Shown here: one piece after another, positions 40,269 through 62,754 of the stretch
Layout of the letters: each line of letters begins with the position of its first letter
Numbering within the stretch: the stretch's first letter is position 1
From: Desulfosporosinus acidiphilus SJ4
GTDB taxonomy: Bacteria; Bacillota; Desulfitobacteriia; Desulfitobacteriales; Desulfitobacteriaceae
Assembly (NCBI RefSeq): GCF_000255115.2
Contig: NC_018068.1
Coordinates: forward strand, 558,001-622,000
Length of the DNA: 64,000 nt
Direction: 5' to 3'
Translations under genes and position numbers: made by a program
Notes under the pieces: generated by a model
What the model saw: the letters and a program-made list of their open reading frames with translations, nothing else
The model's database searches: none
Told to the model about the DNA's origin: nothing

Positions 40269-42240
40269 GATAATCAGAGCCTCCTTCTGCCAGCTTAACG
40301 AAGGTTTGATTGGCCGGGAATTTTGCCAAAGCTTCCTGCAGGATGTTCTGCCGCGAAGCGGTATAAAGATCAATAAGTCGCAGGTAAGGGCGGGGGGAGT
40401 TGGGATCCAATTTCAGGGCGACTTGGTAATCCTGTTCCGCTTCGAATAATTTACCTAGATGGGAATAGATTTCTGCACGTTGAAAATGAATTTCGGAGGT
40501 TGGTTTTTGTTCGAGTGCTGTATTTAAAAAAGGAAGGGCCTGAATTTCTTGTCCATAGTTCATAAAAATCTGGGCTATTTGCAGGGCATATTCACATAAG
40601 CATTCCGAAGTAATGGTTTGTAAGAAAAATAAGGCTCTCTCTATTTCTTGTAAATTGACGAGACGCTGAACAATATCCAGCAATAACAGCACGCCGTCTG
40701 AATTCAGGTTTATTTGCCCGGAAGGATTTGTTTTATCCTGTGTCATTAAAAACAAAGAGAGGACATTTTCCGTATTTTGTTCTAAACCCAGAGCATAGAG
40801 TTCTTTCCATATGGAGCGAACTTTGTGAGGCATATCTTGAAGCCAATAGCAAAACAAACGATTTAAAACAGCGAGTGCATAGTCGGGGCTTTCAGGAGTA
40901 AAGTCTTCCAGGAGTCTTAAACTTTCAAAGTATCTTCGAGCCTGCAGGAGGCAAATTGCTCTTTTTAATTTAAGCTGCGACATTACCGGGACGCCGTCAG
41001 CGGCTTTTTCAAAATAGTCTAAGGCAAGGTCATAGGCTCCATGTTTATAGTAGATTTCTCCCATGAGTCGGTTTGCTTCAGGAGTACAAAAATCACAAAT
41101 TCTTTTAAGGCATTCCTCCGCATAGTCCGGTTCTTGAGCGGGTTTCAAGATACTGACAAGGCTTTCCAGAGCAAGAGTGAAATTGGGGTTGTCCCGAAGG
41201 CTTAAAAGATAGTATTTAAGTGCTTCTTCTTCATCTAAAAACAATTCGGCAATTTGGGCCAGGCAGTAATACGAACGAAAGCCTCTAACCCCGCCAAAGG
41301 AAGCGTATTGAGGAGGCTGTTCCGGCATGGATAGAGCTTGTAGAAAAGCATTCCGGGCTTGAGAATAATGTTTAAGGTCTCGCTGCAGGAGCCCGCTATA
41401 ATAATAGAGGTCAGCATAGTTTGGGAAAAGCTTTAAACCAATTTCCGCAGTATTCAGAGCTTCCTTTAATTGTCCGGAGGACTGTTGAGCGATCACAAGG
41501 TAGCGTAAAAGCTTAGGGAAATAAATCGTATGGGGGTCAGTATTTTCAGCAGCCTGGATGAAGATCTCGGACGCTTCCGTATAACGTTCAGCACGAAAAA
41601 GCTCCACGCCGTAATGGAATTGCAGCAAACGATTGGCCGGTTGTTTGGCAAGTTCTTTTTCTATCAACGAAATGTTACGGTATTTTTTATCTTTAACCTG
41701 GATCAAATGATCTGAATAGCCGTAATGAAGAATTGTAAAATCTTCGGCAATCTGATACTTTGCCTGGGTATTTTTCTCTAAAATAACGTCGGCTATTTGT
41801 TCATGAATAGCTCCGCGAAAGCGATACTCCTTCTTATTGCGAAAAAGCCGGAAAACAAGATCGGGGACGGTTTCGGTCCACCCTTCCCTTCCCAGGTAAT
41901 TGATGATTTTCACGAAATATCCTTCAATGTCTTCGCACTCAAGTAATGGGGTCAAACGATCCCGGCTGGAAGGCGATAATTCTTCATCAGCGTCCAGAAA
42001 AAGTACCCAATCCCCTTGAGCTCTATCTAAGGAGGAGTTTCGAGCATCGCTAAAATTGTCATTCCAAAGAAAATGGTGAACTTTTGCTCCATGTTGTTGA
42101 GCTATGTCACAGGTTGAATCGGTGGAACCTGTATCAACAATGATGATTTCATCGACAATATCGGATACACTCTTTAAGCAGCGGTTTAAATTGTCTGCTT
42201 CGTTTTTTACAATCATACATAAACTGATTTTTATGGCCAT
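40252..42240 (-). CDS. GT2 glycosyltransferase with TPR tail, first of trio
   Basis: 662 residues. GT2 domain at 1-230: SLCMIVKNEADNLNRCLKSV, VDTGSTDST, NFSDARNSSL, LDADEE; then about ten TPR-like repeats to the end (for example DLYYYSGLLQRDLKHYSQAR and EIHFQRAEIYSHLGKLFEAE). It is the promoter-proximal gene of the trio. CATATAGTA on the minus strand (42276-42284) with GTAAAG 16 bases before it looks like a sigmaE/sigmaK promoter. It probably modifies spore-surface proteins. Confidence 0.88.
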   Translation of the reverse strand: MAIKISLCMIVKNEADNLNRCLKSVSDIVDEIIIVDTGSTDSTCDIAQQHGAKVHHFLWNDNFSDARNSSLDRAQGDWVLFLDADEELSPSSRDRLTPLLECEDIEGYFVKIINYLGREGWTETVPDLVFRLFRNKKEYRFRGAIHEQIADVILEKNTQAKYQIAEDFTILHYGYSDHLIQVKDKKYRNISLIEKELAKQPANRLLQFHYGVELFRAERYTEASEIFIQAAENTDPHTIYFPKLLRYLVIAQQSSGQLKEALNTAEIGLKLFPNYADLYYYSGLLQRDLKHYSQARNAFLQALSMPEQPPQYASFGGVRGFRSYYCLAQIAELFLDEEEALKYYLLSLRDNPNFTLALESLVSILKPAQEPDYAEECLKRICDFCTPEANRLMGEIYYKHGAYDLALDYFEKAADGVPVMSQLKLKRAICLLQARRYFESLRLLEDFTPESPDYALAVLNRLFCYWLQDMPHKVRSIWKELYALGLEQNTENVLSLFLMTQDKTNPSGQINLNSDGVLLLLDIVQRLVNLQEIERALFFLQTITSECLCEYALQIAQIFMNYGQEIQALPFLNTALEQKPTSEIHFQRAEIYSHLGKLFEAEQDYQVALKLDPNSPRPYLRLIDLYTASRQNILQEALAKFPANQTFVKLAEGGSDYHEAKD

Positions 42241-42275
42241 GATCTCTCTGCCTTTTTAAGTTTTCTCCACTGCAA

Positions 42276-42306
42276 TACTATATGCGCTCGAAAAGTGAAA
42301 CTTTAC
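42276..42306 (-). promoter_or_regulatory. Candidate sporulation (sigmaE/K) promoter for GT trio
   Basis: Minus strand: GTAAAG, 16 bases, CATATAGTA. The -10 matches CATANNNTA fully. It is divergent from the promoter at 42305-42332 and overlaps it by two bases. Confidence 0.5.
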
Positions 42307-42332
42307 GGGACAAATGGGAATAGCATATAGTA
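42305..42332 (+). promoter_or_regulatory. Candidate sigmaK promoter for repetitive DUF6385-like gene
   Basis: AC at 42305-42306, exactly 17 bases, then CATATAGTA at 42324-42332. This fits the sigmaK consensus AC-N16/17-CATANNNTA without mismatch. Confidence 0.6.
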
Positions 42333-42380
42333 TGCAATCTGTTAAAAAATGGATTGCACAAGGAAGGAAGGGAGAATTCT

Positions 42381-43148
42381 TTGGCCAACTTTAAAATTTT
42401 TCAAGACAACCCTGACCAAGTGAAGATTAAGATTTACGGGAGTAATAACACAGCCTTCAACACGGATTCATCGGGTAACCTGACGATTACGTCCACAGGG
42501 CTGGCGATCACTCCCCCGACCGACGGTTTGTCGATCACGTCGACAGGACTGGCAATCACAGCGCCAGCAAATGGTTTAACGGTAACAGCCCCAGCCAGCG
42601 GTCTGGCCATTACCCCGCCGACGGGTGGTTTATCGATCACTCCCCCGACGGGTGGTTTGTCGATCACGTCGACAGGACTGGCAATCACGGCGCCGGCAAA
42701 TGGTTTAACGGTAACAGCCCCAGCCAGCGGTTTAGCCATTACCCCGCCAACTGGCGGTCTATCCATTACGCCGCCGGTTAATGGTATTCTCGTAACCTCA
42801 CCGGGACTCGCCATTGTCAGTGCAACAACCGATGTTTCCGCAACTCACGCCAATATCACGGATACTGCAGGGAGTGGAGATACAACCTACAATGTCTTAG
42901 ACGTGCGAACATGGACCTTCGGTGTGGTCAACGAATCCTTAGCAACGAACGCACAAGCACTTGTCAATTTACAGATCAGTCCTGACGGAACCAACTGGCT
43001 GACTGAAGCAGGACCGGTGACAATTAACCAAAATTCCTTAACCACGTTAGTATCTTCAATTTTCCTTAAGTATGCCCGGGTGTACTATAGTGCTGTGAAT
43101 GCAGCCAGTGCTGTAACCTTGAACATTTTCTTCCAAGGAATTTTGTAG
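42381..43148 (+). CDS. Repetitive DUF6385-like spore-surface candidate C
   Basis: 255 residues from a TTG with GGAAGGGAG 6 bases upstream. A short N-terminal strand motif (NPDQVKIKIYGSNNTAF) is followed by about 14 imperfect 7-8-residue repeats of the form GLAITPPTG/GLSITSTG (about residues 30-150), which should stack as a beta-solenoid or extended stalk. The C-terminal domain (DVRTWTFGVVNES, LQISPDGTNWL, FLKYARVYY) is shared with the genes at 33360 and 34432. DNA encoding the repeats includes a 129-base duplication. A sigmaK-like promoter precedes it. Confidence 0.8.
   Translation: MANFKIFQDNPDQVKIKIYGSNNTAFNTDSSGNLTITSTGLAITPPTDGLSITSTGLAITAPANGLTVTAPASGLAITPPTGGLSITPPTGGLSITSTGLAITAPANGLTVTAPASGLAITPPTGGLSITPPVNGILVTSPGLAIVSATTDVSATHANITDTAGSGDTTYNVLDVRTWTFGVVNESLATNAQALVNLQISPDGTNWLTEAGPVTINQNSLTTLVSSIFLKYARVYYSAVNAASAVTLNIFFQGIL
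42531..42745 (+). repeat. 129-base internal direct duplication
   Basis: The block starting TCGATCACGTCGACAGGACT at about 42531 recurs at 42660, about 129 bases (43 codons) later, almost unchanged for some 85 bases. It lies in the repetitive part of the gene at 42381 and suggests recent unequal exchange. Confidence 0.7.
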
Positions 43149-43172
43149 CAGTCAACCAGCAAAAAACGGTTA

Positions 43173-43215
43173 ACTCAAGGAGCCCTGACAATATGGGCTC
43201 CTTGAGTAATTTTAT
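43173..43215 (+). terminator. Terminator after repetitive gene
   Basis: ACTCAAGGAGCC and GGCTCCTTGAGT form a 12-bp stem; AATTTTATCC follows. Confidence 0.8.
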
Positions 43216-43313
43216 CCAATCGTGAGACTTCTTCTATAAGTGGGAGTGGTCTCCGTTCTCTGCTTCGGTGGGGGGGTGGAGTCCCCGAAGACCCGATGTT
43301 CAGCTTTCGCTGA
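43216..43313 (+). other. Structured intergenic stretch
   Basis: Several hairpin arms are present (CTTCGGGG/CCCCGAAG type near 43263-43292 and GTTCAGC-TTTC-GCTGAAC at 43299-43315). It is GC-rich relative to its surroundings and may be another dispersed repeat. No second copy is seen in this window. Confidence 0.4.
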
Positions 43314-43340
43314 ACAAGTTCACTAACTGTGCATACCTTA
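43314..43340 (+). promoter_or_regulatory. Candidate sigmaK promoter for zinc-ribbon gene
   Basis: AC at 43314-43315, 16 bases, then CATACCTTA at 43332-43340, matching AC-N16/17-CATANNNTA. Confidence 0.5.
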
Positions 43341-43364
43341 ATACAGAGGAAAGGTGGTGTGAGT

Positions 43365-43586
43365 ATGGCGGAATCCCGATGCTTAAAATGCGGCAATACT
43401 CATTTCGAGGTTGTCCACGCTAATAATTTGGAAGGAACCACGCGTGCAATACTTTTTGTCCAGTGCTCAGATTGCGGATCTGTGATCGGAGTCTTGGATT
43501 TCCTTAATATCAGCGTCCAGGCAGAACGTGTGAAGAACGATATGAAGACCAAACTCGAAAACATTTGGCATCAGCTTAACCATTAA
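43365..43586 (+). CDS. Small zinc-ribbon protein
   Basis: 73 residues from the ATG at 43365, preceded by GGAAAGGTGGTG. Two CxxC pairs (C6/C9 in CLKCGN and C34/C37 in CSDCGS) make a zinc ribbon. A C-terminal helix follows (QAERVKNDMKTKLENIWHQL). It overlaps the convergent GT4 gene by four bases. The sigmaK-like promoter upstream suggests late mother-cell expression. Function unknown. Confidence 0.7.
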   Translation: MAESRCLKCGNTHFEVVHANNLEGTTRAILFVQCSDCGSVIGVLDFLNISVQAERVKNDMKTKLENIWHQLNH

Positions 43587-44620
43587 GCTTCATCATTAGG
43601 TCTAACCGGAGGTTTCGGTTCATGATCTTCAATCATCGTTCTGTAAGCTGCTAGGGTTTTTTCTGCCACTTTCGACCAGGTAAAATGTTTGTGGATATGC
43701 TGCATGAGCGGGAGCGGCGAAGCAGCAAAGGATTGTTCAAGTGCCCTGCGCAGGCCGGAATTATCAAGCGGACGCACATAAAGGGCCATGTCTTGGAAGT
43801 ATTCTTTAGGACTTCCTTGATCTGTCGAGATAACGACGGAACCACAGGCCCCGGCCTCTAAGCTCGATAACCCCGGGGTTTCGAACCAGCTTGGCAAGGC
43901 GTGGACTTTAGCCGCCGCATAAGCCGAGGCGAGAAGGGAGCCTTGCAGAGTTCCAAGATGGTGTACGGTGGAAAAAGCGGTGACTTGTTGATAGTACTGA
44001 GGATCATTGACAGGTCCCAGCAGGATAAGCGGAAGATGGAGATCCTGACAAACTTCAGCCAGCCAATGCTGATTTTTTCTGGGAGCAATTCGCGCAGCAC
44101 AGAGAACAAATTCTTCGGGCAGATTGGGGAACTGTTCCCGAAATCGAGCAGGAGTTGCTCCTATGAATGAATCTGGAAAGCCATTGGGAACGACTCGATA
44201 AGAGGCTGTTTTGGAAAAATCCCGGCGCAGGACATCCATTTCCAGTTGGCTGTTAGGGAGCAGAAGATCTGCGTCCGCTGCCAGACGCCCCCGCATGGGC
44301 TGCATGTGATTCCATGCCGCCAGGGCATTGGGGCTGGCTCCTTCTCGCTTTAAATAGGCATTAGGTGACCAATAAATAGGGGAAATGACAATCTTTTTCT
44401 TTTGTTTTTGAGCATTGTAAAAGTACATATAACTTTCCTTGATGCGGGTGATGTTGAAAATATGAACAAGGTCATAGGATTCTAATTCAAGATTGGGATC
44501 TGTAGAAATATGAACTTCTACCCCCAGAGCTTTAAGCCCTTGTCCGGTGGATACAATCTGAACGGAATCTCCGGCAGGGTTTTTCAGGAAATCCGGGCGG
44601 ACTTGAAAAAGGACTCGCAA
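43583..44620 (-). CDS. GT4-type glycosyltransferase
   Basis: 345 residues from a TTG with AGGAGGAG 6-7 bases upstream. GT-B fold: N-terminal lobe DLVHIFNI and DADLLLPNSQLEMD; C-terminal lobe with VVPNGFPDSF, VLCAARIAPRKNQHWL and ALPSWFETPGLSSLEAGACG, the sugar-nucleotide E-x7-E motif of GT4. It follows the CgeB-like gene by 17 bases and is probably the last gene of an operon beginning near 47545. Confidence 0.9.
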   Translation of the reverse strand: MRVLFQVRPDFLKNPAGDSVQIVSTGQGLKALGVEVHISTDPNLELESYDLVHIFNITRIKESYMYFYNAQKQKKKIVISPIYWSPNAYLKREGASPNALAAWNHMQPMRGRLAADADLLLPNSQLEMDVLRRDFSKTASYRVVPNGFPDSFIGATPARFREQFPNLPEEFVLCAARIAPRKNQHWLAEVCQDLHLPLILLGPVNDPQYYQQVTAFSTVHHLGTLQGSLLASAYAAAKVHALPSWFETPGLSSLEAGACGSVVISTDQGSPKEYFQDMALYVRPLDNSGLRRALEQSFAASPLPLMQHIHKHFTWSKVAEKTLAAYRTMIEDHEPKPPVRPNDEA

Positions 44621-44637
44621 AAAAAACTCCTCCTAAG

Positions 44638-45588
44638 TTATCCCTTCTCGAGCAGCGCACGTATTGACTCAATGCGGTGACGATAGGTGTGATTTTGGTA
44701 GACTTCTTCTTGACCTTGACGAGCAATTTTTTCTCGAAGATCGTCTCGCTGTAAATAAAACTGAATAAGTTCTAAAGTTTCATCCGGATGGCGACTCCAG
44801 ACTAAGTGGACGTGGTTTTTGAAAAGTCCTTCAATGGCCGGAGTCCAATGCGTTAGAAAAAAGGCACGACATCCCAGGGCTTCGAAGGTGCGCATGCTCA
44901 TCATGGTGGGAGAATTAATCACTGAATGCAGGCCCAAAACAATTTTGGCCGAGGAATAAGCTGAGGGTAAACGGGTGTAAGGCAGATACCCTTGATAGAC
45001 ATTTTGAGGCAAGGTGTAACGGTCGGTATTGGCCACCCACTGCTCATTGCCAAAAACTTTTAAATTCAATTTACTTGCTAATAAGGGTGTTAGGATGGTT
45101 TCAATACCGACTTTTCGGTGTGGGTAGGATGTATAATAATTGGCTGCCAAAAGTAAATCACTTTCGTATTCAGGTAAGGGCGGCACGGGGCGGTGAAAAG
45201 AGGGATTACAGGCAAAATGGAAATAGGAGGCTCGGATTTTTTCCCGTTGATAAAGAGGCAGACATTCTTGAGCCGGGGTGAGAACGAGGCTGGCTCCCCG
45301 GGCTAAAGGGCGGGACATGCGGCGCCAGTCCGGCGGATCATCGATCGCCCAATAGATTAAGGGCAGGGAATGGCGGCGCAGCAAAGGGAAGAGTTTTCTG
45401 GCCACGGTGGAGATAGATACACCTTCCGCGAAAGCATAGTTGGGTTTCCAGAGATTTAACAGCTCCTCCAAAAGGGTTTCCCAGTTTGGCAGGTGCACGG
45501 GCAGGGAACGGATCTCATCTTCTGAGGAAAACCCTGAGGTCAATCCATAGTTTAAGAGGGGAGAATCGTTTAAAAGCAAGAGTTTCAT
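44638..45588 (-). CDS. CgeB-like glycosyltransferase
   Basis: 316 residues from the ATG at 45588. This ATG overlaps the stop of the DUF1858 frame as TGATG; an upstream in-frame ATG at 45603 lacks a good ribosome-binding site. The N-terminal half has WAIDDPPDWRRM and the C-terminal half HSVINSPTMMSMRTFEALGCRAFFLTHWTPAIEGLF, matching the CgeB/DUF3880 family. CgeB is a sporulation protein of Bacillus subtilis involved in the spore's outermost glycosylated layer, which supports a spore-surface role here. Confidence 0.85.
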   Translation of the reverse strand: MKLLLLNDSPLLNYGLTSGFSSEDEIRSLPVHLPNWETLLEELLNLWKPNYAFAEGVSISTVARKLFPLLRRHSLPLIYWAIDDPPDWRRMSRPLARGASLVLTPAQECLPLYQREKIRASYFHFACNPSFHRPVPPLPEYESDLLLAANYYTSYPHRKVGIETILTPLLASKLNLKVFGNEQWVANTDRYTLPQNVYQGYLPYTRLPSAYSSAKIVLGLHSVINSPTMMSMRTFEALGCRAFFLTHWTPAIEGLFKNHVHLVWSRHPDETLELIQFYLQRDDLREKIARQGQEEVYQNHTYRHRIESIRALLEKG

Positions 45589-45818
45589 CAATCGTGTCTC
45601 CATTGATGATGCCCATGTTCAATGACAACCTCCAGAGATTTTAGCAGAGATGCAGTATTGAGATGGTATCGTTGAGCAGCCTGCTCAACGCTCATATTGA
45701 GTATGCTTTTGGCTCCTCAGCCGGAGACCGAAATACCGAATTTGCGAAAAACAGTAAGTGTTTGAGGATACAAAGACAGGATTTCGGAAATATTTGTCTT
45801 TAAATTTAAGTTATCCAT
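45588..45818 (-). CDS. DUF1858 protein with in-frame TGA (selenoprotein candidate or pseudogene)
   Basis: A 76-codon frame from the ATG at 45818, with AAGGAGG 12 bases ahead inside the end of the upstream gene. The sequence matches DUF1858 on both sides of one TGA (codon 34, 45717-45719): ISEILSLYPQTLTVFRKFGI before, and MSVEQAAQRYHLNTASLLKS after. The family has GxxCxGC at this place; here the first Cys is Val and the second is the TGA. The frame ends at 45588-45590, overlapping the CgeB-like ATG. An 8-bp hairpin follows the TGA. Reading TGA as selenocysteine would give one complete protein; a Cys-to-stop mutation is the alternative. Confidence 0.6.
45670..45690 (-). promoter_or_regulatory. 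SECIS-like stem-loop downstream of in-frame TGA
   Basis: On the minus strand CGTTGAGC and GCTCAACG pair perfectly around AGGCT, starting 26 bases after the TGA. The apex GC-AGGCT-GC is similar to GC-AGGUCU-GC in the Escherichia coli fdhF SECIS. The loop G pair is about 36 bases past the TGA, near the far limit of usual bacterial spacing. Confidence 0.4.
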
Positions 45819-47545
45819 TTGTTCCAGAAACCTCCTTTTGATCGGTCGGATCGTTTCTCATCTTGGAGCTGACTTACTTGTTGACCCAAAGTTTCCAGAG
45901 AAGAGTCGCTTTCTTCTTGTTTGACGAGCATGGTTTGGAGAACTTGAGATATGGTTTGAGTTTCCTTTTCCAGATTAGCCATAGCTTCTATGAATGGTTC
46001 AAGTTCTTCCAGGGGAATCTCAGGTGAGGATTGCTCTGCAGGTATTGGGGGTATGGGATTTTCCGCTTGTTTGGCCCGGAGAGTATTTTCGGCGAAAGCA
46101 TCCAGGATTTGATCAAACTTAGACATCATAGTTTGAAGAACGAGATTTAGATTAGAACTTTCTTGTTCCAGGTTGGCTACTGTGGCTATTAAACGATCGA
46201 GTTCTGAGTTGTCCTTCAAGGGAGGAGCAGAGGGCGACTCTTCTGTCGCTGGTTCGAGGGCTGAAGGAATTGAGGATTCCTCTGATCCAACGGAAGGTAT
46301 GTCTTCTGGGCTGGCATTTAATATTTCTAGAGTGATCTCGGGTTCCTCCGTTTCCTTAACTATAGGCAGTGAAGAAACGACTTGGTCCTGTCTTGTCAGA
46401 CTTTGAAGGGGATAGGGATTTGAGGATAAAGAAATCGTTTCGGGATGAAAAGCCGGTACAGGAGGAGGAACCACTGCCGGATTAACCGGCGTTATATAGG
46501 TTGTGTCCTGATCGGGACTGAGCCTTTGGCACAGATTAAGGCCTAATTCATGGCAATAAGCAGGAGTACGGGGTATTGCTTGGTCTTCAAGCCAGTAGGT
46601 TTGCTGGACATTCCGTTGGCCGTTGTGTATCCATTTAAGAGGCTGTTGTGAAAAACTGTTTGTGAGGACAGATTTCCAACCGGTACCATCGTTTAACAGC
46701 AGCGTTTCATTTCCGGTATGGGCCAGAAGCCAAAGAACTCCGTTGATTTCGATGGCCCCCAAGTTTCTCCAGGGAGGAGAGAAGGTTTTAATGGGTGCAG
46801 GTGAGGGCTGCCAATTGCCTGTTAATTCCAGGGCATTAGTCTGTTGGGCCCAGCGAATCTCATAATGGCCGTTAGGAGCCTTTGCGACCCAAAAGAGATG
46901 CTGGACATTATCAGTGGTCATAAGTGATGTCATATCAACGACTTCACCGGGTATTTTCAGTGTTTCTGTGGGAGATCCCCAGATATGAAATGTTCCGTTA
47001 AAACGATTTGTAAAAAGAAGAGAATGCCTTCCTTGAAAAGTCATGGTTAATAAATGGAGGTTTCCTTGCTGATCAAGGTTTACGTGATAAAGAGGTTCAC
47101 GGGGATGAACAACTTCTCCCATATGGACACTGTTCCAGGTGGAACCGTTCCAAAAACGATGTTCAATACGCCAAAGATCGCGAATTGCTTGATGGGAATA
47201 AGCATAGAAAATATGTACCATTTTTCCCTGAGGGAAAATCAGGAACCGGCGGTATTTTGTCGTACGAACATCTAATTTAGCGATAAGCGTTGTTTGAGGA
47301 TTGGAAAATCCGGAAATTAGGGTATAGCACAGTTCTCCGTTCGTTTTGAGAACAACAAGGTGAACCGTTTTAATATCTGTCATGATCCCTTCAGCTAAAA
47401 GCAGGGGCTCTTGGATGCGGTAATAGGGCTCTGAACTTTCCGGTTTGAAAAGGGCACATCCCTGAGGAGTAATATGCAGATACATAGATTCATTCTCATA
47501 GGTCAGGAGATGAGGGATGTATTTGGATTTGCTCAGTTGAGCCAA
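45806..47545 (-). CDS. Beta-rich protein with Pro-rich linker and coiled coil
   Basis: 579 residues. The TTG at 47545 has AAGGAA 9 bases upstream; an in-frame GTG at 47554 touches it. Residues 1-350 contain repeated strand patterns (for example LYHVNLDQQGNLHLLTM and VQHLFWVAKAPNGHYEIRWA), like a beta-propeller. A Pro/Glu/Ser-rich linker (about 375-450) is followed by two coiled-coil heptad stretches (LIATVANLEQESSNLNLVLQ, FIEAMANLEKETQTISQVLQ). No family recognised. Its last codons contain the start of the DUF1858 frame. Probably a spore-surface structural protein. Confidence 0.7.
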   Translation of the reverse strand: MAQLSKSKYIPHLLTYENESMYLHITPQGCALFKPESSEPYYRIQEPLLLAEGIMTDIKTVHLVVLKTNGELCYTLISGFSNPQTTLIAKLDVRTTKYRRFLIFPQGKMVHIFYAYSHQAIRDLWRIEHRFWNGSTWNSVHMGEVVHPREPLYHVNLDQQGNLHLLTMTFQGRHSLLFTNRFNGTFHIWGSPTETLKIPGEVVDMTSLMTTDNVQHLFWVAKAPNGHYEIRWAQQTNALELTGNWQPSPAPIKTFSPPWRNLGAIEINGVLWLLAHTGNETLLLNDGTGWKSVLTNSFSQQPLKWIHNGQRNVQQTYWLEDQAIPRTPAYCHELGLNLCQRLSPDQDTTYITPVNPAVVPPPVPAFHPETISLSSNPYPLQSLTRQDQVVSSLPIVKETEEPEITLEILNASPEDIPSVGSEESSIPSALEPATEESPSAPPLKDNSELDRLIATVANLEQESSNLNLVLQTMMSKFDQILDAFAENTLRAKQAENPIPPIPAEQSSPEIPLEELEPFIEAMANLEKETQTISQVLQTMLVKQEESDSSLETLGQQVSQLQDEKRSDRSKGGFWNKWIT

Positions 47546-47576
47546 TGTTATCACTTCCTTGGTTGTTGAATATGTA

Positions 47577-47606
47577 AGAAAAGGCCGTTGAGACGGCCCT
47601 TTTCTT
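47577..47606 (-). terminator. Terminator between beta-propeller and coiled-coil genes
   Basis: GGGCCGT and ACGGCC pair around CTCA on the minus strand and run into TTTTCTT. The sequence works in both directions. Confidence 0.7.
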
Positions 47607-47648
47607 ACTAGAAGGGCATATTATTTCATAAGATGAGATTTAAGAGGA

Positions 47649-49199
47649 TTAGCAATTATCCAATTGCGGCGGGAAGAAATCACTGGGGAAAGGTGTGAGT
47701 GTAGTGTCAAAGAAGTTAAGGCAAGGATTTTCCGGAATAACGGGGAATTCCTCACAAACCGGAGGTTCTGGGCAGAAGCCAAAGGCCGGGACGAGGAGCT
47801 GAACTACACCTGTTACCTTGGTTATGACAAAACTTCCGATAGCCAGTTGGATTGAAGCTGTTGTAAACAAGGGGCTCGTTAAGACTTCTGTTCTCGTTTC
47901 GACCCGCAAATTGAAATCGAATTCCGGTCGTGTCGGAGGGAAATACATAACAATGTCCTTGTTGATATCCGGGAGGTTTCCTGTGAGTGTAAAGAGAGCT
48001 CCTGTTGAATCCCGCAGAGTTAAGGTGTAAGGAATTTGAATCGTAAATTGAACTCTGGAGAAATTGGGGCGGGATGGGATAGGAGTTATTACAATGCTGC
48101 TAGGAACAATAACACCGTTGGCGAATGTCATGCTGACGAAGGTAAAGGGAGGTACGCCTGTTGGTAACGTGACAGTAAAGGCCGGGAAACATTCCCTTTG
48201 CATGCAGCTGGCATAAACTTTTTCGACGATGATGCAGACCGATTCAGTGATTTCTTCAAGTTGATAGGGATCGAGCAGGTCAATGGGTTCACTTGGTGAT
48301 AGTGCTGACCCCACTCTTCCTACGGTAACTCCGCGAGGAGGGAACGATGTGGGGAGCGCTGCTGCTATTGTATTCGTTGTGGTGTTAATAATGCTGATAG
48401 AACTGTCCCCTTCATTGGCTACCCAAACTTGAGTTCCGTCTCCGGTAACACCCAAACCCAGAGGATTAACACCAACAGGGACCGTGGTAACGACGTTAAG
48501 GCCGGCAGTTGAGATGACACTTACACTGTTTGAACCGAAGTTGGTAACATACATGAAAATCGGGTTTACAGGGTTGGCTGCGATTTTCTGGGGATTTAAG
48601 CCGACAGGGATGGTGCTGATTAAGGTGTTGTTCGAGGTGTTGATGACGCTGACCGTATTATCGCCGCTGTTGACAACAAAGAGTTTGGAATTATCTAAGC
48701 TGAGTGCTAAACCGTTCGGTGATGTTCCAACGGGGATTGTAGCTATTACGGTGTTCGTAATAGGGTTAATTACGGAAACTGAATTGCTTCCAGAATTGCT
48801 GACATAGACTCGGCTGCCGTCACGGGCAATGGCCACATCCACAGGGTTTGTACCAACGGTAATAGTCGCTACTACTGTATCCGTAGGAATACTGATGACG
48901 GAAACAGTTCCGGCTGCGGAGTTTGTCACATAAGCTGTGGTGCTGGTTGGGTCAATGGCCACGGCAGTAGGTGCAAGCCCTACGGGAATAGTTGCCAGAA
49001 CACGATTCGTCGATGTGCATAAGATTGAGACAGTGTTGCTCCCTTGGTTAGGGACTAAAACTCTGGTACCATCCGGCGTGCGCAGTGGGAAAGCCGGTGC
49101 AATGCCCACAGGGATGGTAGCGACGAGCACATCGCTGTATACGTTATATATGGCGACTGCGTTGTCGAGAGTCACCCAAGCATGGGTTTCAAATAGCAT
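47649..49199 (-). CDS. YVTN-type beta-propeller protein with unique C-terminal domain
   Basis: 516 residues. Residues 10-310 hold about seven repeats of the YVTN/YncE type (VSVINTSNNTLISTIPVGLNPQ, VYVSNSGSNSVSVINPITNT), forming one seven-bladed propeller. Residues 325-516 are a separate Pro- and aromatic-rich domain with several Cys. No signal peptide is seen. Start ATG preceded by a GGGGGGG tract. Such propellers are common in surface-layer and spore-coat structural proteins. It has its own terminator. Confidence 0.85.
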   Translation of the reverse strand: MLFETHAWVTLDNAVAIYNVYSDVLVATIPVGIAPAFPLRTPDGTRVLVPNQGSNTVSILCTSTNRVLATIPVGLAPTAVAIDPTSTTAYVTNSAAGTVSVISIPTDTVVATITVGTNPVDVAIARDGSRVYVSNSGSNSVSVINPITNTVIATIPVGTSPNGLALSLDNSKLFVVNSGDNTVSVINTSNNTLISTIPVGLNPQKIAANPVNPIFMYVTNFGSNSVSVISTAGLNVVTTVPVGVNPLGLGVTGDGTQVWVANEGDSSISIINTTTNTIAAALPTSFPPRGVTVGRVGSALSPSEPIDLLDPYQLEEITESVCIIVEKVYASCMQRECFPAFTVTLPTGVPPFTFVSMTFANGVIVPSSIVITPIPSRPNFSRVQFTIQIPYTLTLRDSTGALFTLTGNLPDINKDIVMYFPPTRPEFDFNLRVETRTEVLTSPLFTTASIQLAIGSFVITKVTGVVQLLVPAFGFCPEPPVCEEFPVIPENPCLNFFDTTLTPFPSDFFPPQLDNC

Positions 49200-49282
49200 G
49201 TGTGTATTCCCCCCCTTTTTTGAATCGAGAAATAGTTAGACTGAGACTTTCAACGTATTGTATTCTATCGCCCTGTAGGGTG

Positions 49283-50293
49283 TTACACACTTTCTTGATT
49301 TCGATTGCTCCTGATTAAAATTTGCTGCAGGATTCTGCCGCTTCGCTCTGTCCAGTCATTGGCTTGAGCATAAGCCATACGCTCCGCCTTGCTGGGATCT
49401 GTTTCTGCCACTAAATGACGCAAGCGGAGAGAGAAGCGATGAGGATCACTTTCTAAGTTGATTTTTGGAACGGCGAGCAATTCCTGAAGTGGTGTAGCTA
49501 GCACTTGGATGCCGGAGGCATAATATTCAAAAAGCTTGATGGGGTTGCACCCCTTTGTCATCTCAGTTTGCAGAAAGGGAATTAGACCCACATCGAAGTG
49601 ATGGAGATAAGCGGGAAGATCAAAATATGATTTCAACCCCAAATAGAAAACATTTTTATAGTTGTTTAAGGGAAATTGATGAAGTTGAAAGAAGGCACCG
49701 ATAAATACAAAGTTAAATTCAGGATTCTCTTTGATCACTAATTTTAATAACTCCCAGTCAACCCAGGGGGCTATTGCTCCACTGTAGCCAATAATTGGTT
49801 TCCCTTGCGGGAGGTCAATGGGACGCAGAGATGGCTGCGGCGAAAAATGGATATAATCGACACCGTTGGGTACAAGATAAACTCGCGGATGTCTTGAAAT
49901 AAAATATTCATAGATGCTTCGGCTGCTGCAGAAGATAAGATCTGCGTTTTGAATAATTGAAGGATAGTACGGCGCCCAGCTGGCAAACTCGTCTTTAGGT
50001 TCATCAACTGCATCATATATAATCAGATCTGGATCATAGCGGGAAATAGAATTTATATGTGAGGGAACCGTTAACCATAGAAGGCGGGGACGGGGATGAG
50101 AAATATTCGTGGCGGAAATCCCTTGGCAGAGATGCAGGTAAGGCGATAGACTCCTAATTCTGGGCTGAGAGAAGTTCCCTAAGTCTTCATAAAGAACAGT
50201 ATTGCCAGACATCGAAAACTGAGCAAGAAGCTGCTGCGGGCGTTGAAACATCCAATTCCAAGGGATTGAGGGAGGATAAATAAAGGTTGGCAT
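49283..50293 (-). CDS. GT4/GT1-type glycosyltransferase
   Basis: 336 residues, start preceded by GAGGAGGTAA. N-terminal motif PPSIPWNWMFQRPQQLLAQF, then IIYDAVDEPKDEFASW, NADLIFCSSRSIYEYF and YLVPNGVDYIHFSP. The C-terminal lobe has VGLIPFLQTEMTKGCNPIKLFEYYASG. This is the pattern of UDP-galactopyranose-transferase-like GT-B enzymes often found in surface polysaccharide loci. CATATCCTA at 50340-50348 (minus) resembles a sporulation -10. Confidence 0.88.
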   Translation of the reverse strand: MPTFIYPPSIPWNWMFQRPQQLLAQFSMSGNTVLYEDLGNFSQPRIRSLSPYLHLCQGISATNISHPRPRLLWLTVPSHINSISRYDPDLIIYDAVDEPKDEFASWAPYYPSIIQNADLIFCSSRSIYEYFISRHPRVYLVPNGVDYIHFSPQPSLRPIDLPQGKPIIGYSGAIAPWVDWELLKLVIKENPEFNFVFIGAFFQLHQFPLNNYKNVFYLGLKSYFDLPAYLHHFDVGLIPFLQTEMTKGCNPIKLFEYYASGIQVLATPLQELLAVPKINLESDPHRFSLRLRHLVAETDPSKAERMAYAQANDWTERSGRILQQILIRSNRNQESV

Positions 50294-50339
50294 TAGTTAC
50301 CTCCTCGAGCTCTGTCTAATAAAATGTTGCTTTAATAAT

Positions 50340-50348
50340 TAGGATATG
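50340..50348 (-). promoter_or_regulatory. Candidate sporulation -10 element
   Basis: CATATCCTA on the minus strand fits CATANNNTA, about 50 bases ahead of the GT4 gene. No AC is present at 16-17 bases upstream, so only the -10 is supported. Confidence 0.35.
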
Positions 50349-50434
50349 CTCGTGATTCCTAATTGGGAATCGGAAGCTTGTATCGTATTTAAGTGAAGAC
50401 AAAGGGCAGGAACGAAAACTTTTAGAAAAGAATT

Positions 50435-50482
50435 AGGGGCTGATGCTCTGCAAACTAAATTGTTTACAGAGCATCAGCCCCT
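50435..50482 (-). terminator. Long-stem terminator
   Basis: AGGGGCTGATGCTCTG pairs perfectly with CAGAGCATCAGCCCCT across a 16-base loop. It ends the CheX transcript on the minus strand, where TAATTCTTTTC follows. Confidence 0.75.
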
Positions 50483-50542
50483 GCTGTTTAATCAAAAGTA
50501 CAACATTTAATTGTAGCTTTCCTCCGGAATAAGAGTAATTAA

Positions 50543-51013
50543 CTATTTGCTTTCAATCAAACCTACATAGATATCAATCGGGATACCATCGACGTCAAAT
50601 TGAACTGCGATTGTTTGAGGTACCGGCAAGGTAGCTTGTCCATTGTGACCGATAAGCAGGACCGGAGGTGAGATATCAAGGCCATTGATTCCTACCTTGC
50701 TAAACTGGGTACAAGTATTGGCACATACCATGTTTCCCATTTCGGAGATTGCGCTTTGTGCCAGAGAATCAAAGTCTGTTACAGGCATACCCATCATCAT
50801 TTTTGAGGCAAACTGCTTGGCTGAGTCCAAGCTCATGCCGATTAAAACAGCACCCTTCAGGGCTCCTACTAAAGAGATATTTACAAGTACCCCATCATAA
50901 TCTAAGGTCGAGCCAATTAAGGAGAGACCCCGGCGTTCAACAGACTGAAAACCAATCTGAGGAAGTACTTCAGTAAATGAGAGGATTAGTGGATTGATAA
51001 GATTTATATCCAT
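50543..51013 (-). CDS. cheX: CheX-like chemotaxis phosphatase-family protein
   Basis: 156 residues, start preceded by AAAGGAG. The family core SAISEMGNMVCANTCTQF carries the E-x2-N motif (E-M-G-N) that CheC/CheX use to remove phosphate from CheY. It overlaps the CheY-CheX fusion gene by 10 bases, so the two are coupled. No other chemotaxis or flagellar gene is in the window. It may dephosphorylate the fused receiver. Confidence 0.88.
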   Translation of the reverse strand: MDINLINPLILSFTEVLPQIGFQSVERRGLSLIGSTLDYDGVLVNISLVGALKGAVLIGMSLDSAKQFASKMMMGMPVTDFDSLAQSAISEMGNMVCANTCTQFSKVGINGLDISPPVLLIGHNGQATLPVPQTIAVQFDVDGIPIDIYVGLIESK

Positions 51014-60176: not shown

Positions 60177-60207
60177 AAGAAGCTTATTAAACCTGGAGGT
60201 GAATTGC

Positions 60208-60552
60208 TTGCCATATTTTACAACAGGATTAATTAATAATTCCTGGAATGGCGTCGGGAAAAAGACTGTAAGTCTTAACGTAGAGATTTCTAATGAGGAT
60301 ACATCGACAGTTGCGGTTCAAATTGACGGTTATTTTTATAAAGGACAGCAAAAGTTCAAGTATGTCGATGAATTCTTCGTTATATCTTCCGGAACTGTAG
60401 ACCAAAGAAATTTTAACAGCATTTATGATGACTTCGAATTTCAGGTATTTGTAAGTTCTTATGATACCCATGTTTCTATCAGGCGAGTGGAGGCAAACGG
60501 AAAGGCTACACCAGTCTTGCCGATGATCTCTTCAGAATTGCATCCGATCTAA
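60208..60552 (+). CDS. TTGL-domain protein 1, spore-surface candidate
   Basis: 114 residues from the TTG at 60208, with GGAGGTGA 5 bases upstream; a GTG at 60199 overlaps that site. It is a single all-beta domain: YFTTGLINNSWNG, VSLNVEISNEDTSTVAVQI, FFVISSGTVDQRNF, FEFQVFVSS, ISSELHPI. It is the most diverged of four tandem paralogues (60208, 60696, 61087, 63058). No signal peptide. In the two collagen proteins the same domain stands at the N-terminus, suggesting that it anchors or caps them. Confidence 0.75.
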   Translation: MPYFTTGLINNSWNGVGKKTVSLNVEISNEDTSTVAVQIDGYFYKGQQKFKYVDEFFVISSGTVDQRNFNSIYDDFEFQVFVSSYDTHVSIRRVEANGKATPVLPMISSELHPI

Positions 60553-60667: not shown

Positions 60668-60695
60668 AAGTACCGCAAACAAGGAGGTGCTGGGA

Positions 60696-61040
60696 ATGGC
60701 TTCATTAACGACTGGTTTGATAGATAACACTGCGGTATCGGGCGTTAGACCAAGTACAACGCTTTCAGTATTGATATCAAACGATGATATTACAAGCGCA
60801 TCAGTTCAAATTGAGGGATTTTTCCAAAGCGGGAGTACAAAAGTGCAGTATGTACAAGAACTGTTTTCACTGCCTGCAGGAGGCGTAGCTTCAAGAAATT
60901 ATAATGTTCAATTTGATGCTTTTGAATTTCAGTTTATCGTAAGTTCTTCAGCCGTCAATGTATCGGTTTGGGGAAAAGATTCTGCAGGAAACCTAACGAC
61001 AGCACAGAGATTGGTTGCTCAGGAGGTTAATCCTTTTTAA
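60696..61040 (+). CDS. TTGL-domain protein 2, spore-surface candidate
   Basis: 114 residues, ATG preceded by AAGGAGGTG. SLTTGLIDNTAVSGVRPS, ISNDDITSASVQIEGFF, LFSLPAGGVASRNYNVQFDA, VSVWGKDSAGNL and RLVAQEVNPF align along the whole length with the N-terminal domain of the next gene. It stands alone without a collagen tail. It is 47 bases upstream of the collagen gene and probably co-transcribed with it. Confidence 0.8.
   Translation: MASLTTGLIDNTAVSGVRPSTTLSVLISNDDITSASVQIEGFFQSGSTKVQYVQELFSLPAGGVASRNYNVQFDAFEFQFIVSSSAVNVSVWGKDSAGNLTTAQRLVAQEVNPF

Positions 61041-61071: not shown

Positions 61072-62754
<1,683 letters not shown>

Follow-up and report, generated by a model that had tools for sequence, protein, structure and literature searches.

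A lone-selenocysteine variant of the DUF1858 family is very probably encoded through a conserved in-frame UGA in Desulfosporosinus

A DUF1858 selenoprotein of the CxxU type (WP_012065717.1), with selenocysteine (Sec) at the second Cys of the motif, has already been included in reviews (PMC9312934, PMC13188914), and the 2026 review (PMC13188914) regards differing Sec motifs within one domain as separate subfamilies. A DUF1858 variant with a lone Sec is not among the families of PMC13188914, including those it lists from Haft and Tolstoy 2025, and priority for such a variant is not certain. The main text of the two papers that the reviews cite for the DUF1858 selenoprotein does not name the protein, and our searches for literature joining selenoproteins with exosporium, spore or Desulfosporosinus found nothing relevant. 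WP_012065717.1 was compared here by its description in the review, while the sequence-level comparison was made with relatives from Lutispora. CxxU relatives carrying a TGA turned up in 22 of the 391 genomes sampled from the Lutispora class (E<=1e-9), and in Lutispora the CxxU gene lies directly after a gene for a thioredoxin-reductase-like pyridine nucleotide-disulphide oxidoreductase (Pyr_redox_2). In a Lutispora genome, two more DUF1858-like frames (G084:C34:44154-44342 and G084:C35:49848-50039) also had a TGA inside the stretch that matched, and these TGA codons may be ordinary stops.

The window, i.e. the whole 64-kb stretch of Desulfosporosinus acidiphilus DNA that was analysed, carries a DUF1858-type gene which, by ordinary stop-codon rules, would be read as two fragments or a pseudogene. 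The coding sequence (45588-45818, stop codon included; 76 residues), its TGA and a downstream hairpin are all on the minus strand. The translation from 45818 to 45588 reads MDNLNLKTNISEILSLYPQTLTVFRKFGISVSG, a stop, GAKSILNMSVEQAAQRYHLNTASLLKSLEVVIEHGHHQWRHD and the terminal stop; the TGA at 45719-45717 is the sole in-frame stop and would encode Sec as residue 34, at the second-Cys position of CxxC. The original prediction, a reading of the DNA by itself, had described a DUF1858-like frame split by one TGA at the second motif Cys, starting inside the previous gene with a good ribosome-binding site and overlapping the next ATG at its end. These features were all found where it had placed them, on a strand that it had not named: AAGGAGG is located within the upstream gene (45831-45837), the start shares 13 nt with the 582-aa gene at 45806-47554, and the end shares bases with the next ATG (TGATG). 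On comparative evidence we consider it almost certain that this gene encodes a functional selenoprotein with Sec decoding at the UGA, which is what the original prediction had proposed, and the proposal is now supported by a conserved UGA, Sec/Cys exchange, the hairpin and the Sec machinery.

When Cys was substituted for the TGA, the window protein scored 30.7 bits against DUF1858 (PF08984; E 3.4e-07), where the Pfam cut-off is 32.2 bits. Three congeners scored over this cut-off (33.2-37.4 bits), and in alignment A1 each of the 22 members matched DUF1858 at E<=0.001. The AlphaFold2 model was all-helical with a mean pLDDT of 87.9, and its best Foldseek matches were 2k5e (TM-score 0.76) and 2k53 (0.65), which we take to be DUF1858-type structures. 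In a profile search against the PDB, the residue of 2k5e that aligned with the Sec was the second Cys of its CxxC. The DUF1858/TIGR03980 redox-disulfide domain proteins (2k5e, 2k53) have the fold and motif position seen here; however, 2k5e carries an ordinary CxxC, and the window protein is below the TIGR03980 cut-off (33 vs 44.95 bits). There was also a distant likeness in sequence and fold to the N-terminal domain of ScdA/YtfE (DUF542), but the window protein is below the cut-off of that family and has no further domain.

The DUF1858 domain and Sec at the second Cys are common to the window protein and the CxxU DUF1858 selenoproteins, and the SECIS-like hairpin of the Lutispora relatives has the same sequence as the one in the window. 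The Cys three residues ahead of Sec, on the other hand, is not present in the window protein. This position is Val, as the original prediction had pointed out, Thr in 22 of the 27 genomes of the genus and Cys in one, so that the first Cys is missing in 26 of 27 congeners, and alignment A1 contains no further conserved Cys. The distance from the UGA to the hairpin loop also differs, at 35 nt here compared with 29 nt in the CxxU relatives (two extra codons here), as does the gene neighbourhood. With its first motif Cys replaced and its setting different, the window protein is a distinct variant. The family itself is not new, as DUF1858 selenoproteins of the CxxU type were already in reviews, and this qualifies the original prediction. 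Read as a selenoprotein, the gene extends a poorly understood family by a conserved variant with a lone Sec, for which the natural Cys forms provide ready comparison proteins.

The gene is the fourth of a cluster on the minus strand that begins with a glycosyltransferase-like gene (49283-50293), followed by a gene for a 516-aa beta-propeller protein containing eight Cys (47649-49199) and the gene for the 582-aa protein, which has no confident Pfam domain. After the selenoprotein gene come two glycosyltransferase genes, Glyco_trans_1_2 (PF13524; 44638-45603) and Glyco_trans_1_4 (43583-44620). The Desulfosporosinus loci share this order with g3 and g4, within the reach of the contigs, and the neighbourhood is kept over several genera, with gene overlaps at both ends of the selenoprotein gene in the window and in many congeners. 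In g5 and g7, a counterpart of 44638-45603 was not detected, and neither downstream glycosyltransferase was detected in G034. The beta-propeller protein is about 85-94% identical across the genus, and its eight Cys, one of which is the last residue, are kept in every locus that could be compared. Ahead of the first gene, with a spacer of 46 nt, is the motif CATATCCTA (50340-50348, minus strand), and in most congeners CATATCNT or CATACCTT is found 41-61 nt ahead of the first gene of the cluster. These motifs resemble the -10 element of promoters recognised by sigma E/K, the mother-cell sporulation sigma factors. Together, the neighbourhood and the sigma E/K-like -10 motif suggest that the cluster could be a spore-surface operon.

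The best-supported mechanism is SelB-dependent Sec insertion, in which SelB on the hairpin at 45690-45670 would bring a Sec-tRNA-Sec with the anticodon UCA to the UGA codon (45719-45717). The product would be a 76-residue DUF1858-fold protein with one Sec in an x-x-G-U-G motif (mostly T-S-G-U-G), in which Sec replaces the second Cys of the family CxxC and the first Cys has been lost in most species. The selenol would be expected to be redox-active. Thiol/selenol redox is the likely activity because of the family CxxC motif and the neighbour gene of the CxxU relatives, and we regard a thiol-redox function as probable. Without a resolving Cys of its own, however, the selenoprotein would need a partner thiol, for which the propeller protein with its conserved Cys is one candidate. 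Thiol/selenol exchange could then take place with the eight conserved Cys of the propeller protein or with Cys of a glycosyltransferase, possibly in the mother cell during assembly of the spore surface.

A role in spore-surface maturation is put forward tentatively, on the basis of the neighbourhood and the promoter-like motif, and the more specific idea of a lone Sec without a resolving Cys, dedicated to spore-surface assembly through propeller or glycosyltransferase thiols in the mother cell, is slightly more speculative. The selenoprotein in a spore-surface operon of the original prediction is thus upheld for the selenoprotein, while its spore-surface part is drawn from the neighbourhood and the promoter-like motif. 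Another possible function, compatible with Sec decoding, is a general redox role away from the spore surface, perhaps in partnership with a reductase of the thioredoxin type. We would give this a little less than an even chance: it is in keeping with the Lutispora CxxU relative located directly after a thioredoxin-reductase-like gene, but against it stand the neighbourhood shared by several genera, with the gene overlaps described above, and the loss of the first CxxU Cys in this protein. To our knowledge, a role of this selenoprotein at the spore surface would, if true, be the first link of selenium to the endospore surface. As the lone-Sec variant is tied to a conserved cluster of glycosyltransferase and surface-protein genes over several genera, a role for selenium in spore-surface assembly becomes directly testable.

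Other genes in the window were also observed. A protein with collagen repeats and a C-terminal BclA domain is encoded at 61078-62754, about 15 kb from the selenoprotein gene, and is preceded by two small proteins (60199-60552 and 60687-61040) with related N-terminal TTGL segments; together these look like an exosporium-type set. The other strand from that of the glycosyltransferase genes encodes, at 42354-43148, a DUF6385 protein that contains a series of repeats of the ITPPTGGL/ITSTGLA type.

In a search of 61 relatives, the one-TGA frame was found in this genome and in 26 further genomes of the genus, and the position of the TGA codon was identical in all 27 gene-carrying genomes. Nearly all named records of these loci are Desulfosporosinus. 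In a class-wide survey, the TGA also occurred in three further genera (G031, G032, G035, G061 and G066), while two other genera have a Cys codon (TGC/TGT) at the same position in a continuous frame (G033, G034, G062, G063 and G064). All orthologues therefore have TGA or Cys at the exact place, which had been proposed as a check, and both UGA conservation across species and Sec/Cys exchange in homologues, as used to recognise bacterial selenoproteins, were found. At three nearby comparison codons (Gly28, Ala36 and Leu58), only 26-30% of sequence pairs had the same codon, compared with 27 of 27 genomes for the UGA, which points to retention of the UGA beyond chance. The gene was absent from three congeners. 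Completeness is about 79% for two of them, but G028 has no copy in a nearly complete genome that does contain SelB and tRNA-Sec. In a short-protein tree with few columns and partly unresolved, the proteins of the family grouped together and the two Cys groups were apart from each other, suggesting more than one Sec/Cys exchange.

The original prediction had noted good conservation of the frame past the TGA, and this was confirmed by pN/pS values of 0.26 ahead of the UGA and 0.30 past the hairpin. Stops were present in the remaining two frames downstream of the UGA in every congener. Synonymous divergence (pS) was about halved over the spacer (0.36) and the hairpin (0.33), compared with 0.69 ahead of the UGA and 0.61 past the hairpin. 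From these comparisons, purifying selection is seen to act on the codons beyond the UGA. This genetic code uses UGA as a stop, and if it were a true stop here the functional product would be a 33-residue peptide, perhaps with a coupled downstream restart. This is very improbable given that purifying selection goes on past the UGA, orthologues with Cys have one continuous frame, a SECIS-like hairpin is tied to the UGA, and both halves are needed for the modelled DUF1858 fold.

The hairpin, CGTTGAGCA-GGC-TGCTCAACG, was present at 45670-45690 as the original prediction had stated, on the minus strand and with a 9-bp stem, and it is the only perfect hairpin with 9 bp and a 3-nt loop within the window. 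Its 21 nt have a folding energy of -11.7 kcal/mol in the congeners, and the extended form in the window has -13.2. The original prediction considered it rather far from the TGA, but the loop begins 35 nt past the UGA, which is inside the 16-37 nt published for bacterial SECIS elements (PMC13188914), and the GGC loop, the 9 bp and this spacing fit the bSECIS model quoted there. The loop is GGC or GGT among Sec forms, and the hairpin is conserved in TGA forms, which was another of the proposed checks; the Cys forms compared are without it. The stem contains a single mismatch in some species and is degraded in G015 (L016). An Rfam search of 42000-50600 gave no match, hence no curated RNA family covers the hairpin.

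Within the family alone, the hairpin is nearly invariant and covariation was not above that of shuffles; because it is so conserved, covariation cannot be judged at this level. When CxxU forms from Clostridia were added (42 Sec forms, 35 distinct), three pairs changed on both sides, giving 10 doubly changed cells. None of 500 shuffles matched this number or the covariation score, in a control that does not remove relatedness. Directly abutting the SECIS stem is a small stem, CTCA-ATA-TGAG (45691-45701, minus strand), starting with the leucine codon CTC at position 40, which does not vary among the 32 Sec forms in alignment A3. The small stem was not seen in Cys forms or Lutispora relatives, and it could possibly offset the longer spacing between UGA and hairpin.

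The genome also encodes SelA (566 bits), SelB (345.6 bits, over the cut-off), SelD (399.8 bits, itself with an in-frame TGA) and a tRNA-Sec (64.9 bits; anticodon TCA by ARAGORN), the complete set for which the original prediction had advised looking. UGA readthrough occurs in bacteria, and the UGA could in principle be read outside the Sec pathway, by a near-cognate tRNA or as an amino acid such as Trp. We consider this highly unlikely, as homologues without the UGA all have Cys at the aligned position, the Sec machinery is complete, and the hairpin fits the bSECIS model in spacing and loop and has a covarying stem.

Least probable of all is a pseudogene whose TGA is a Cys codon that was recently mutated to a stop or was misread in sequencing: in one genome a TGC/TGT-to-TGA change would look alike, which had been a worry from the beginning, and Cys is indeed found at the position in G034 and the G033 group, but the same TGA in 27 of 27 congeners and three further genera, the lack of any additional in-frame stop and the pN/pS of 0.30 after the TGA are hard to reconcile with it. 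The pseudogene, the true stop and the non-Sec readthrough were all rejected on the evidence given for each. Of the observations named beforehand as counting against Sec, i.e. other sense codons, extra stops or frameshifts, missing selB/selC, or a sequencing error, none was found.

Of the genomes with a Cys form, four have SelB and one does not: SelB is kept in the G033 group although the codon is Cys, while no SelB over the cut-off was found in G034, whose best tRNA-Sec score was 48 bits, and this pairing of Cys with missing SelB in G034 favours Sec decoding of the UGA. Weaker matches at such a level occur in every genome here and are probably other tRNAs. Within the genus, G003, G022 and G027 each contain a pair of SelB genes that exceed the cut-off as well as a pair of strong tRNA-Sec matches, which suggests that some species have a second set for Sec decoding.
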